Shown piece after piece: positions 48,559-51,907 of a stretch of 64,000 bases of DNA. Within the stretch, counting starts at the first letter, position 1. Every line of letters begins with the position of its first letter. A program made the position numbers and the translations under genes. A model generated the notes under the pieces. The model was not told the DNA's origin. It saw only the letters and a program-made list of their open reading frames with translations, and ran no database searches. The DNA comes from Flavobacterium sp. ASW18X (GTDB lineage: Bacteria > Bacteroidota > Bacteroidia > Flavobacteriales > Flavobacteriaceae). The stretch is taken from assembly GCF_005144745.1 (NCBI RefSeq), contig NZ_SWKK01000008.1:310001-374000 (forward strand). The letters are read 5' to 3'.

Positions 48559-49335
48559 TCAATCCATAATAATCTTGAACTGATTTCTTAAGCCATTGTA
48601 TGCGTCTAAATCTGCTTTGAGGGAACCAACGGCCAAATCAGCTTTGATACGGACCGGAATCTTGTTTAGGTCATTGGTTACCCAAAGGGTAAGACTTTCT
48701 TGTTCCTTAAAAACACGACCGGACTGTACATAAGGTCTAAATTTAAGACATTCTACTTTTCCGAACTTGGTTTTTAAGATTTCCTTACCTAAATATTTTA
48801 ATTTAAACTGAAAAACACCATCATCATCAAACAACATGTCCATATTTAACGTTTGTCCATCATCAAAGTGGTCAAAGTTGTATTTACTTCTTAGATAATA
48901 AGCAGCAGATAATAAATCCTGAATATTATTATGGATAGGTATATCTAGTTCTTTTTTGTTTTTGTGGTCTGTTAATATGGCATTTTTGGTACTATAATCA
49001 AAGGCTATTTCTATATCCTTAGTGTAGCCCCCCTCATCTATCTTTCTTATGAATTTGTAGGGTTTGCTATCTGTTTTGCCAAAGTAACTTTCATAGGTGT
49101 CATCAACTTTAAAAAAGATGCTGGCAAAACCAGTTGTTTTTCCTTTCCCAACTACGTGGTATACAGGTTTACCATTTAACTCGTCAGATTTTAAATGCAG
49201 CGTAGCATAACTGGCATTTAGAAACCCATAATGTATCCGGAATTTTAACCATTCCCCAGTTTTAAAAGCAGGTGTTTGTTGTGCGTAGCTTAAGCTTACG
49301 GTACAAAGCAAAAGGTATAGGAGAATCTTTTTCAT
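48559..49335 (-). CDS. DUF3108 domain periplasmic protein
   Basis: A 258-residue protein with a signal peptide (about 1-18) and a single beta-rich DUF3108 domain. Family hallmarks are GEWLKFRIHYGFLNASYATL near 27-46 and KFGKVECLKFRPYVQSGRVF near 195-214. The function is unknown; the fold resembles lipid- or lipoprotein-binding barrels. It heads the run DUF3108-kynA-M23-pgi, with gaps of 14 and 1 bases and an overlap, so all four are probably one transcript. The candidate small RNA at 49431-49536 ends about 95 bases upstream of its start. Confidence 0.9.
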   Translation of the reverse strand: MKKILLYLLLCTVSLSYAQQTPAFKTGEWLKFRIHYGFLNASYATLHLKSDELNGKPVYHVVGKGKTTGFASIFFKVDDTYESYFGKTDSKPYKFIRKIDEGGYTKDIEIAFDYSTKNAILTDHKNKKELDIPIHNNIQDLLSAAYYLRSKYNFDHFDDGQTLNMDMLFDDDGVFQFKLKYLGKEILKTKFGKVECLKFRPYVQSGRVFKEQESLTLWVTNDLNKIPVRIKADLAVGSLKADLDAYNGLRNQFKIIMD

Positions 49336-49430
49336 TATTGGAGCAGTTTGTATATTAAAATTATAAAAATCAGGGCTATCAATAACCGGTTTACAATTAA
49401 TTAAACAAAACTTATACCAAACTATTGCAT

Positions 49431-49536
49431 AAAAAAAGCCCTAGTGTGTTCACTAGAGCTTTTTCTAAATAACCAACCAAACTTTAAATTATGAAAAACC
49501 AATACTTAAAGTTATAAGGGAACCACCCCTTATGCC
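49431..49536 (-). ncRNA. Candidate structured small RNA with its own promoter and terminator
   Basis: In the 316-base gap 49336-49651 an exact -7 box TATCTTTG (49546-49539) is followed by three stacked elements on the minus strand. Hairpin 1 is ATAAGGG/CCCTTAT (49533-49514, six-base loop). Hairpin 2, starting at the very next base, is AACTTTAA/TTAAAGTT (49513-49480, 18-base loop). Then comes the 17-base stretch TTTGGTTGGTTATTTAG (49481-49465) and an intrinsic terminator (49464-49433, one C-A mismatch), ending in seven T. The predicted transcript starts at the first base of hairpin 1 and is about 103 nt. No TTG lies at normal distance. It could instead be the 3' end of the patatin-gene transcript. 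Confidence 0.6.
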
Positions 49537-49651
49537 AACAAAGATACGGCAGGTATTAGATTGCTTTTTAGCTTTTAACCAACTTTAACCAAAAGATTGA
49601 GAATTTTAGAAAGCTTTAGTGTTTTTTGTAAAAAGGTTGCTAAAAAATAGC

Positions 49652-51907
49652 CTAAAACCAATAGCCTATACTAAAAAATAGGGTGCCGTCATTCTGCTGT
49701 GGTGTCCATGAATAGAGTATTTGTGCTGGGCCTAAAAAGGATTCTAGACCATAACCAATACCAAAACCAGAATAGTCTGGTGCTGTAAACCAATCTCCAG
49801 TACGGTATAAATCGTCTGCTACGTTAGCAAAATTGGTCATAAATAGCAGGTGATTTTTTGGACTGAACTCATAATCTAAGCGAGCGCCTGCTTTTATAAA
49901 ACTATTACCAATTAAACTCACATAATCATACCCTACAAAGGGAATTATATTATTAATGGGCTGGTTGCCATAGCCGCCCAAAATAAAATCAAAAGAAGAT
50001 ACGCCTGCCGTTCCTAGTTTAAAGCCAGCTTCGGATTCTAGTGTTAGCGATAGTTTAGGAAATAAGGGGAGTGCCATACCTAGCTTACCTTTAGTAACAG
50101 AAAAGTCTTTAAAATTATTATTAAAATCACTAGAGTATATATAGTAGTGAAAGTCACCATCTAGGAATAAACCTCTCGTGGGAAAATATTTATCGTCATA
50201 GGTGTCAAAACGAAGCCTACCATAGGTGCTTATATAGTCACTCTTCTCAAAAAACACACGGTCTTGCATGGCGTTCTCTTCTACTTGATTGTTTGTAGGG
50301 GGCAGGTTGTTTAAAGTGGTGGTACTAAATTTTAAATGTTTATGTTCTAGACCCATCCTAAAAGCAAATTCTTCTCTGATGACGGTTTGCACATAGACTT
50401 GATTGGTTAAATCTGAAAAATCTAAACGTATTTCACTTAAATTTTGATTAGCTCCAAAGTCAAAATTTCTACGTATAATATCATAATTTACCTCTTCATC
50501 AAAACTGGCGAAATTAGAGTTAATCCCAAAACTCCAATAAAATCCTTTGTCTAAATAATATTGAAAATTATAGCGTATGTGGTCTCCAACGATTAGGTCA
50601 AATGAAGCGACGTCATCCTTTAGAAATAGTTTTTTACGTGTTAGGTTAATAAGCGCAGCACTTTTAAACAAATCATCATAATGCGCTCCCATTTTAATGT
50701 ACATTCTTGTGGGGTCTTCTTTTAAAAAGAGTGTTAAGTCCGTCCCTAATCCGTTAGAAGTAAGTTTGTATCGTATAGCTTTAAAGTTATTAGTAGCAGC
50801 TAAATTTCCTATTCCTTGTTGTAGCTTGTCAAAGGTTATTTGATTACCTAAAGTAAATCTTAATTTTCCTTTGATGTAGCCTCTGGTATAAGCTTCATTA
50901 CCTTTGATTATTAATCTGTTAATGGTAAGACTATCTTTTACGCTTTTGCTAACCTTGGTTTTAGTTGCTGTATTTTGTTGTTCAGCAATGGCTTTTAATT
51001 GATTTAATTGTGCTTTAGCGGCCACTTCTCCACGTTCAATAATTTTACCAGTTTTTTCAAAATCAATAACAGAAAATTCTTTGATGTTTGGTTTTAAGTA
51101 TATGTCTGTTTTCTCTTTCTTTTTAATCATATCGTTTGCTGTACGATAGTTGTTGATTTGCATTAAGATGTCTGTTGCAGAAGAAAGAGATTCTCTCACG
51201 GCCAAATCATCCTGTACATCTATGCCAATAATAATATCGGCTCCTTTGGCTCTAATTTCATCAATAGGATAATTATTAACAACCCCACCATCTATTAGAA
51301 TCTGATTATCAATTTCTGAAGGTTCAAAGAGAGATGGTAGTGTGCCACTGGCCATCATAGCTTCTGGCAAATAACCGCGGTCCATAAGTACAGCTTTCCC
51401 TGTTTCTATATTGGTAGCTATGCATAAAAAGGGAGTTGGTAGCTCATTAAAATTGTCAACATCTTTAACATGGTAGAGAAGTTTGACAAACTCGTTATAA
51501 ATGTTTTGTCCGCCAGAAATACCTTCCGGAAAGCTTACTTTAAAATTATCAAAAGGAAGGGTTAAGGTGTAGCGTTCGGCATCGTCCTTTTCATAAAAGG
51601 TTTTAGCGTTTCTTGGTAACTTGTCTTGGATAAGGAGTGATAAGTTGGTGCTTTTAAAAATAGAGTCCAGTTCATAAGCGGTATAGCCAGCAGCATAAAG
51701 ACCACCTATGATTGCTCCCATACTAGTGCCCCCAATATAATCTATTTCTATACCGGCATCTTCTATTACTTTTAAGGCACCAATGTGTGCCATGCCTTTA
51801 GCTCCACCACCACTTAAGACTAGACCTACTTTCGGTCTTTTTTTATCTTGGGCATGTGTTAAAAAAAGGCTACAAAAAACGATAAGTATTACAATATGCT
51901 TTTTCAT
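49652..51907 (-). CDS. Patatin-like phospholipase with POTRA and outer-membrane barrel (PlpD-type)
   Basis: A 751-residue envelope protein: signal peptide (1-19), a patatin domain (about 24-300) with oxyanion loop GGGAKG (33-38), nucleophile Ser62 in GTSMG and catalytic Asp206 in DGG, then a POTRA-like segment (about 320-400, INRLIIKGNEAYTRGYIKGK) and a BamA/surface-antigen-type barrel to the C-terminus, ending in FFSIGYWF. This is the architecture of PlpD type Vd autotransporters. The substrate would be a phospholipid. It is 8 bases after uvrC. Confidence 0.93.
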   Translation of the reverse strand: MKKHIVILIVFCSLFLTHAQDKKRPKVGLVLSGGGAKGMAHIGALKVIEDAGIEIDYIGGTSMGAIIGGLYAAGYTAYELDSIFKSTNLSLLIQDKLPRNAKTFYEKDDAERYTLTLPFDNFKVSFPEGISGGQNIYNEFVKLLYHVKDVDNFNELPTPFLCIATNIETGKAVLMDRGYLPEAMMASGTLPSLFEPSEIDNQILIDGGVVNNYPIDEIRAKGADIIIGIDVQDDLAVRESLSSATDILMQINNYRTANDMIKKKEKTDIYLKPNIKEFSVIDFEKTGKIIERGEVAAKAQLNQLKAIAEQQNTATKTKVSKSVKDSLTINRLIIKGNEAYTRGYIKGKLRFTLGNQITFDKLQQGIGNLAATNNFKAIRYKLTSNGLGTDLTLFLKEDPTRMYIKMGAHYDDLFKSAALINLTRKKLFLKDDVASFDLIVGDHIRYNFQYYLDKGFYWSFGINSNFASFDEEVNYDIIRRNFDFGANQNLSEIRLDFSDLTNQVYVQTVIREEFAFRMGLEHKHLKFSTTTLNNLPPTNNQVEENAMQDRVFFEKSDYISTYGRLRFDTYDDKYFPTRGLFLDGDFHYYIYSSDFNNNFKDFSVTKGKLGMALPLFPKLSLTLESEAGFKLGTAGVSSFDFILGGYGNQPINNIIPFVGYDYVSLIGNSFIKAGARLDYEFSPKNHLLFMTNFANVADDLYRTGDWFTAPDYSGFGIGYGLESFLGPAQILYSWTPQQNDGTLFFSIGYWF

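Follow-up and report, generated by a model that had tools for sequence, protein, structure and literature searches.

The locus

The window, by which we mean the whole 64,000 nucleotide (nt) stretch of Flavobacterium sp. ASW18X analysed here (contig NZ_SWKK01000008.1, positions 310,001 to 374,000), includes an intergenic region flanked by a patatin/Omp85 gene (49652-51907) and by a DUF3108 gene, and a compact element in this region is, judged from sequence, almost certainly an independent small RNA (sRNA) gene. Both genes and the RNA are on the minus strand. The patatin gene ends approximately 119 nt before the RNA, and approximately 95 nt separate the end of the terminator from the DUF3108 gene. 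The uvrC gene is upstream of this group, and tryptophan-dioxygenase-like and M23 peptidase genes are downstream. The parts of the RNA and the features next to it are listed in Table 1.

In the original prediction, a TAnnTTTG box was said to be followed by a perfect 7 base pair (bp) hairpin, directly by a perfect 8 bp hairpin, and then by a linker and an intrinsic terminator, giving an RNA of about 103 nt. All of these parts are present on the minus strand, both in the sequence and in the RNAfold structure, the two hairpins directly adjoin each other, and 49533 to 49431 is 103 nt. The linker is single stranded as described, but the 17 bases given for it include two from the stem of hairpin 2. 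Two models of the RNA, R1 built from 50 sequences and R2 built from 32 that include Flavobacterium, both match 49431-49538 of the window. A simple scan listed the hairpin of the RNA only as a plus strand terminator.

Table 1. Features of the sRNA locus, given as positions in the window
Feature	Position	Strand	Sequence or detail	Basis
Small RNA	49431..49533	-	~103 nt	Ends deduced from the -7 box (5') and the T run (3')
-7 promoter box (TAnnTTTG, sigmaA)	49539..49546	-	TATCTTTG	Sequence; position conserved
Hairpin 1	49514..49533	-	Perfect 7 bp stem ATAAGGG/CCCTTAT, loop GTGGTT	Sequence
Hairpin 2	49480..49513	-	Perfect 8 bp stem AACTTTAA/TTAAAGTT, directly after hairpin 1	Sequence, fold
Near-invariant 28 nt block, probable seed region	49470..49497	-	TTTTCATAATTTAAAGTTTGGTTGGTTA	50-sequence alignment
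Single-stranded linker	49465..49479	-	TGGTTGGTTATTTAG	Sequence, fold
Intrinsic terminator	49431..49464	-	Hairpin and T run	Fold; seven T at 49437-49431
Upstream element	49574..49589	-	GTTAAAGTTGGTTAAA, two GTTAAA repeats 10 bp apart	Sequence, conservation
Sigma54-like -24/-12 element, probable promoter of the downstream DUF3108 gene	49405..49421	-	TTTGGTATAAGTTTTGT	Presumed from motif
DUF3108 gene (neighbour, outside the RNA)	48559..49335	-		Pfam PF11306, E 9.9e-59

Secondary structure of the RNA

The segment 49536-49428 has a predicted folding energy of -38.6 kcal/mol, compared to -19.65 kcal/mol (standard deviation, SD, 3.34) for 200 dinucleotide shuffles, none of which was as good (z score -5.67). 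In the RNAfold structure, hairpin 2 has 10 pairs and an inner helix of 3 pairs.

Covariation was examined in 39 sequences (33 distinct) of the window's group, picked to align without gaps. For hairpin 1, 98.3 % of cells were paired, compared to 37-60 % in controls in which the stem was slid, and four of the seven pairs were changed on both sides. The number of double-changed cells was 22, versus 5.2 (SD 1.9) in shuffles, and none of 500 shuffles was as high. The wider set of 212 instances contains 109 distinct forms of the best hairpin 1 stem (e.g. GGAAGG/CCTTCC, ATAAGG/CCTTAT and GCAATGAG/CTCATTGT), with a mean stem score of 8.3 compared to 5.8 after shuffling; these shuffles, like those used below for promoter and neighbour motifs, keep composition only. 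Between groups, compared by reading, both arms of hairpin 2 differ in Flavobacterium yet pair (TATAAAT/ATTTATA). The terminator was kept in the folds of all 10 diverged sequences, and the sequence of its stem varies between relatives with the pairing kept. The 212 instances were selected for a T run, so this set is no test of terminator conservation.

A promoter element at a fixed distance (see below), compensatory change in hairpin 1 and an own terminator, three marks of an independent sRNA gene, were found, and the conserved box, the conserved stems and the covariation of hairpin 1 support the original prediction in reading the locus in this way. An origin of the hairpins by chance in AT-rich intergenic DNA has a negligible probability. 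A simple scan for sigma70-type promoters, a type unsuited to this phylum, found no excess of promoter-like sites in the region (7 found, 7.6 expected), in line with an origin by chance, but the comparison with relatives refutes this explanation through the conservation, covariation and spread of the RNA.

Distribution and sequence conservation

The RNA was found by BLAST in all 11 genomes of the window's genus and, using model R2, in 199 of 199 Flavobacterium genomes. R2 also placed it in 113 of the 299 genomes of the family that are at least 90 % complete, representing 78 of 203 genera, though 12 of the 113 rest on E values between 1e-4 and 1e-3 and are uninspected. Misalignment of hairpin 2 between groups left R2 with only 7 base pairs. 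A search of the class with R1 recovered at least 8 of 396 genomes, all Flavobacteriaceae; this count is a lower bound because R1 missed Flavobacterium genomes found by R2 (e.g. G500). Outside the Flavobacteriaceae, the RNA is likely to be absent.

Not all matches represent this RNA. At least seven partial BLAST matches are the antisense of gene starts or are elements in the 3' untranslated region (UTR) of hsp20 genes (see below), and the model counts were therefore used for the distribution. One R2 match (L205) lacks the motif, reads like coding sequence and was rejected. Two of the 212 instances (L071 and L072) are not this RNA, and counts without them use n=210. Of these 210, 91 were retrieved by a pattern scan in which part of the linker and terminator was preset, and the instances are not independent.

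In the 50-sequence alignment, 27 of the 28 positions of the block UUUUCAUAAUUUAAAGUUUGGUUGGUUA are invariant apart from an inserted T, and the common Flavobacterium forms of this block carry TTTCATAATTTATAGTTTTTTGGTTRGTTAATAGC. When 14 intergenic pieces (8 whole and 6 halves at contig ends) were aligned, a core of about 67 nt was almost constant and the flanks drifted; the -7 box, the upstream GTTAAA repeat and the element after the terminator also stood out.

Tandem copies were detected by R2 in four genomes (G188, G234, G945 and G291) and three copies in another (G033). In the window's genus, the order patatin, RNA, DUF3108, dioxygenase-like gene is kept, and in three of its genomes the locus is split between two contigs, which terminate within or next to the RNA. 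In the draft assemblies of several genomes, contigs stop within or next to the RNA and their ends overlap (L007/L014, L010/L013 and L009/L015; G802:C273 and C343), and tandem duplication could be the cause of these overlapping breaks.

Promoter and flanking genes

All 144 Flavobacterium instances, and 57 of the 68 others, have a TAnnTTTG box at a nearly constant distance, compared to 7.3 and 3.1, respectively, in composition shuffles. After exclusion of L071 and L072, the box is in 201 of 210 (about 10 of 212 in shuffles). TAnnTTTG is given as the sigmaA -7 consensus of F. psychrophilum in the available part of a transcriptome report (PMC9723704). Upstream of the box, GTTAA was found in 207 of 210 instances, compared to approximately 37 in shuffles of 212. 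The GTTAAA repeats, which may be LytTR-like, are a possible activator site. A spacing rule for this promoter type places a TTG at -33; none was seen at that distance, and the GTTAA element sits further upstream. Some relatives have a third GTTAA upstream of the -7 box.

After the terminator, a TTTGGnAY-N4-7-TTGY element, which is presumably sigma54-like, was found in 174 of 210 loci, most often 80-82 nt past the TTTCAT, compared to 0.2 in composition shuffles. As this element lies between the terminator and DUF3108, the DUF3108 gene probably has its own promoter. Of the 190 testable instances, 180 are followed by DUF3108 on the same strand; a further 22 had too little sequence to be judged. 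Two of the ten that lack it are not this RNA, so there are 8 true instances with no DUF3108 match.

This frequent association, together with the short distance from the terminator to the gene, would suit a 5' leader or attenuator that acts in cis on the DUF3108 gene. We consider that improbable, as the sigma54-like element intervenes between terminator and gene, the RNA occurs in tandem and dispersed copies and in the 8 instances without DUF3108, the module is also found in hsp20 3' UTRs, and the terminator is part of the best folds (the only folds considered) of all 10 diverged sequences. Processing from the 3' end of the patatin messenger RNA (mRNA) is less probable still. The RNA follows the patatin gene closely on the same strand, and patatin precedes it across the genus, but the TAnnTTTG box is at a fixed place, and only 2 of 30 Flavobacterium loci holding the RNA had a patatin match (E 1e-5, within at most 1.5 kb of flanking sequence). 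The concern in the original prediction that the region might be only the tail of the patatin mRNA is answered by this conserved box and by the 28 loci without a patatin match. Because the sigma54-like element follows the terminator and because tandem and displaced copies exist, we conclude that the RNA has a gene of its own and is neither a leader nor the end of the patatin mRNA. The probable separate promoter for the next gene and the tandem and multiple copies also favour a gene acting in trans, and such action is probable from the sequence comparisons made here.

Predicted function

The interpretation that we prefer, and regard as fairly likely, is that of an independent trans-acting sRNA gene, conserved in Flavobacteriaceae, whose product pairs with the start regions of mRNAs. 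That the RNA acts at start regions through the particular seed predicted here is plausible but somewhat doubtful. The near-invariant stretch UUUUCAU...GGUUGGUUA has a complement, 5'-UAACCAACC...AUGAAAA-3', that resembles a start region, and would pair with mRNAs in the vicinity of the start codon. The seed put forward in the original prediction, UUUGGUUGGUUAUUUAG, overlaps this most conserved stretch, but the latter extends over the loop and 3' arm of hairpin 2 as well (UUUUCAU...). Pairing at the start codon would block or alter translation, and the mRNAs of envelope proteins would be the likeliest targets. Hairpin 1 may shield the 5' end, part of the seed may be masked by the 5' arm of hairpin 2, and the upstream GTTAA element may bind an activator that times synthesis of the RNA.

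We infer recognition of start regions by analogy with FopS and BatR of Bacteroides, which bind mRNAs close to the start codon. In the available text on FopS and GibS of Bacteroides thetaiotaomicron, these are Bacteroidota sRNAs that share a seed among themselves, end in a terminator as the RNA here does, and bind near the start codons of SusC-like mRNAs; FopS consists of an unpaired 5' stretch and a single terminator hairpin, whereas the RNA here has two further hairpins (PMC11697453). BatR of B. thetaiotaomicron, in the part of its report available, is likewise composed of a -7 box, a central hairpin and a terminator, and its sites overlap the translation start regions of cell-surface mRNAs (PMC10861873). 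It is 154 nt long, is processed to a 95 nt form and is conserved in Bacteroides species, and the likeness is by description only (PMC10861873). The mRNAs of F. psychrophilum are said, in the available part of the transcriptome report, to have no Shine-Dalgarno sequences (PMC9723704).

Some of the target searches agree with pairing at start regions. Against 272 start regions sampled by gene calling in 464 kb of the window's own genome, the seed gave a mean of -12.23 kcal/mol, compared to -11.05 kcal/mol (SD 0.44) for 60 dinucleotide-shuffled seeds, and 69 start regions were at or below -14 kcal/mol, compared to 41.6 (SD 10.4) with the shuffled seeds. Complements of the linker heptamer GGTTGGT occur 4 times in 262 start regions of this genome (0.6 in shuffles), an excess that is weak because many heptamers were tested. 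In Flavobacterium, TTAACCAACC...ATGAA is found just before TonB-dependent receptor genes at four loci (L209, L212, L217 and L223); Pfam matches to these receptors are Plug and CarbopepD_reg_2, and STN is above the cut-off in two of the four.

Other results weigh against this interpretation, and the target evidence overall is weak and partly negative. In genome G733, the same heptamer scan gave no excess for the stretch TTGGTTAGTTAATAGCATAAA (33 versus 34.3), there being one only for TTTTGGT (8 versus 2.7) and TATAGTT (7 versus 3.4), likewise weak given the many heptamers tested. In the window's own genome, TAACCAACCAAA was absent from the 30 nt before ATGA except in the RNA itself, and when up to 3 mismatches in 26 nt were allowed, only one site other than the RNA itself was found in 11 genomes. 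The pattern AACCAACC-N0-28-ATGAA had 196 matches (RNAs included) in the 11 genomes of the genus, compared to 173 for the reversed control, and TTAACCAACC-N2-24-ATGAA had 93 matches in 61 Flavobacterium genomes, of which 30 are the RNA's own antisense, leaving 63 others versus 40. With respect to structure, the number of pair types in hairpin 1 was not above that in shuffles (148 of 500), and the best fold of one of the 10 diverged sequences (L199) is without hairpin 1. The original prediction proposed a check for compensatory changes in both stems, and hairpin 1 does covary; hairpin 2 hardly varies in the window's group, so covariation there says nothing.

More than 60 nt are near-invariant in the window's group, which exceeds the usual need for pairing with a few targets and could point to protein binding. 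The RNA would then act mainly as a sponge or scaffold for a protein that binds repeated UGGU elements, namely the hairpin 1 loop GUGGUU, UUGGUU in hairpin 2 and UUUGGUUGGUU before the terminator. The weak target evidence would also fit, as would the observation that most printed forms of hairpin 1 change the stem but keep a UGGU or UAGU loop. However, some Flavobacterium forms lose the loop (AATAAGG-CTTCTATAA-CCTTATT) while UUUCAU...GGUUGGUUA stays, and we consider this function unlikely.

Relation to described small RNAs

The Rfam search proposed in the original prediction as a route to a known family gave no match at threshold on the RNA or elsewhere in the window (4227 models), and on the locus, at gathering score and at E up to 5, only chance-level matches were seen. 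The best was the PyrR binding site (RF00515), which was rejected at 25.1 bits (E 0.18), below the gathering score of 54. Flavo-1 (RF01705) was also rejected, having no match on the RNA at gathering score; it was found in one of six loci scanned, a Flavobacterium locus, approximately 1.3 kb from the sRNA (L133 2957-3037, 60.4 bits). This motif is described as widespread in Flavobacteriaceae in the available part of the F. psychrophilum report (PMC9723704). FopS, in the text available, is an sRNA of Bacteroidaceae that is reported to have an Rfam entry (PMC11697453), whereas the RNA here has no Rfam family at threshold. Among the papers listed in our literature search, none had a listing that names this RNA, and none on a patatin-linked small RNA came up.

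The available part of the F. psychrophilum transcriptome report lists conserved, folded sRNAs including Rfp11, Rfp13, Rfp15 and Rfp18 (PMC9723704). Because the RNA is present in every Flavobacterium genome searched, it is probably one of these listed RNAs. In the same text, Rfp18 is conserved in the genus, has a homologue that is expressed in F. columnare, and its deletion lowers two metalloprotease mRNAs (PMC9723704). Like Rfp18, the RNA here is an independent, strongly folded sRNA conserved across Flavobacterium; however, the predicted pairing region of Rfp18 is its third stem-loop, whereas conservation here is highest in hairpin 2 and the linker, and Rfp11 is listed with an SM6 promoter, unlike the TAnnTTTG box of the RNA (PMC9723704, as available). 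The RNA may be Rfp18, with Rfp13 or Rfp15 equally possible, on a comparison by description only. An attempt to place it on the F. psychrophilum map using its neighbours in G733 gave no position, with only a pyrE-like motif found among the listed markers. In summary of identity, it is a conserved, probably trans-acting sRNA that has no threshold match in the Rfam copy searched and that may be a published Rfp RNA.

Post-transcriptional control is little studied in the Flavobacteriaceae, which are common degraders of polysaccharides in water and soil. An RNA present in all 199 Flavobacterium genomes searched, with a fixed box and a near-invariant block, provides a handle for testing the effect of deletion and the targets.

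Related elements

Model R1 detected a second site in the window's own genome (G000:C72:7256-7359, minus strand; L137 1501-1604; E 4.4e-5). This is the 3' UTR of an Hsp20 gene (Pfam HSP20, E 1.9e-25) that faces a uvrB-like gene, and the module there consists of UUUCAU...GGUUGGUU and a terminator. Hsp20 matches were fetched from 21 places in 17 genomes and read by eye. In 11 of 11 genomes of the genus, the best Hsp20 match is followed by TTTCAT...GGTTGGTT...GTTGGTT and a terminator, with an insertion in two; a variant is present in G011, and the module is absent at the other nine of the 21 places. An HSP20 gene in each of G106 and G265 (E 1.5e-25 and 1.4e-24, respectively) is followed by forms closer to the RNA, TTTTCATAATTTGAAGTTTGGTTAGTTA and TTTTTCATAATGTTAAGTTTGGTTAGTTA, and the form in G265 is also matched by R2. 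The hsp20 module coexists with the stand-alone RNA in G000, G265 and G106, and is possibly a sibling sRNA derived from the 3' UTR.

A third, intergenic element, TTCATGTRTTTAGGTTGGTT, has an invariant terminator and was present in all 8 genomes of the genus that were fetched. In the window's own genome it is located between HAD-like and pyridoxamine-oxidase-like genes (C69 near 24774; L447 approximately 1475-1575).

We tentatively suggest, as an idea with perhaps a one-in-three standing in our judgement, that the RNA is the best conserved of a set of sibling sRNAs sharing UUUUCAU...GGUUGGUUA and a terminator, namely a stand-alone form, an hsp20 3' UTR form in which the seed would be tied to heat shock, and an intergenic form. 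These siblings would recognize starts that have no Shine-Dalgarno sequence by the AUG context and the 5' UTR, because the module reads as the antisense of a start region, and would exert control of envelope protein synthesis across the family. If the siblings share targets, this would show how sRNAs find mRNAs where initiation does not use a Shine-Dalgarno sequence. The third element is also written TTCATGTGTTTAGGTTGGTTTTGATTTTA, and the loop of its terminator is AGTGGTT.
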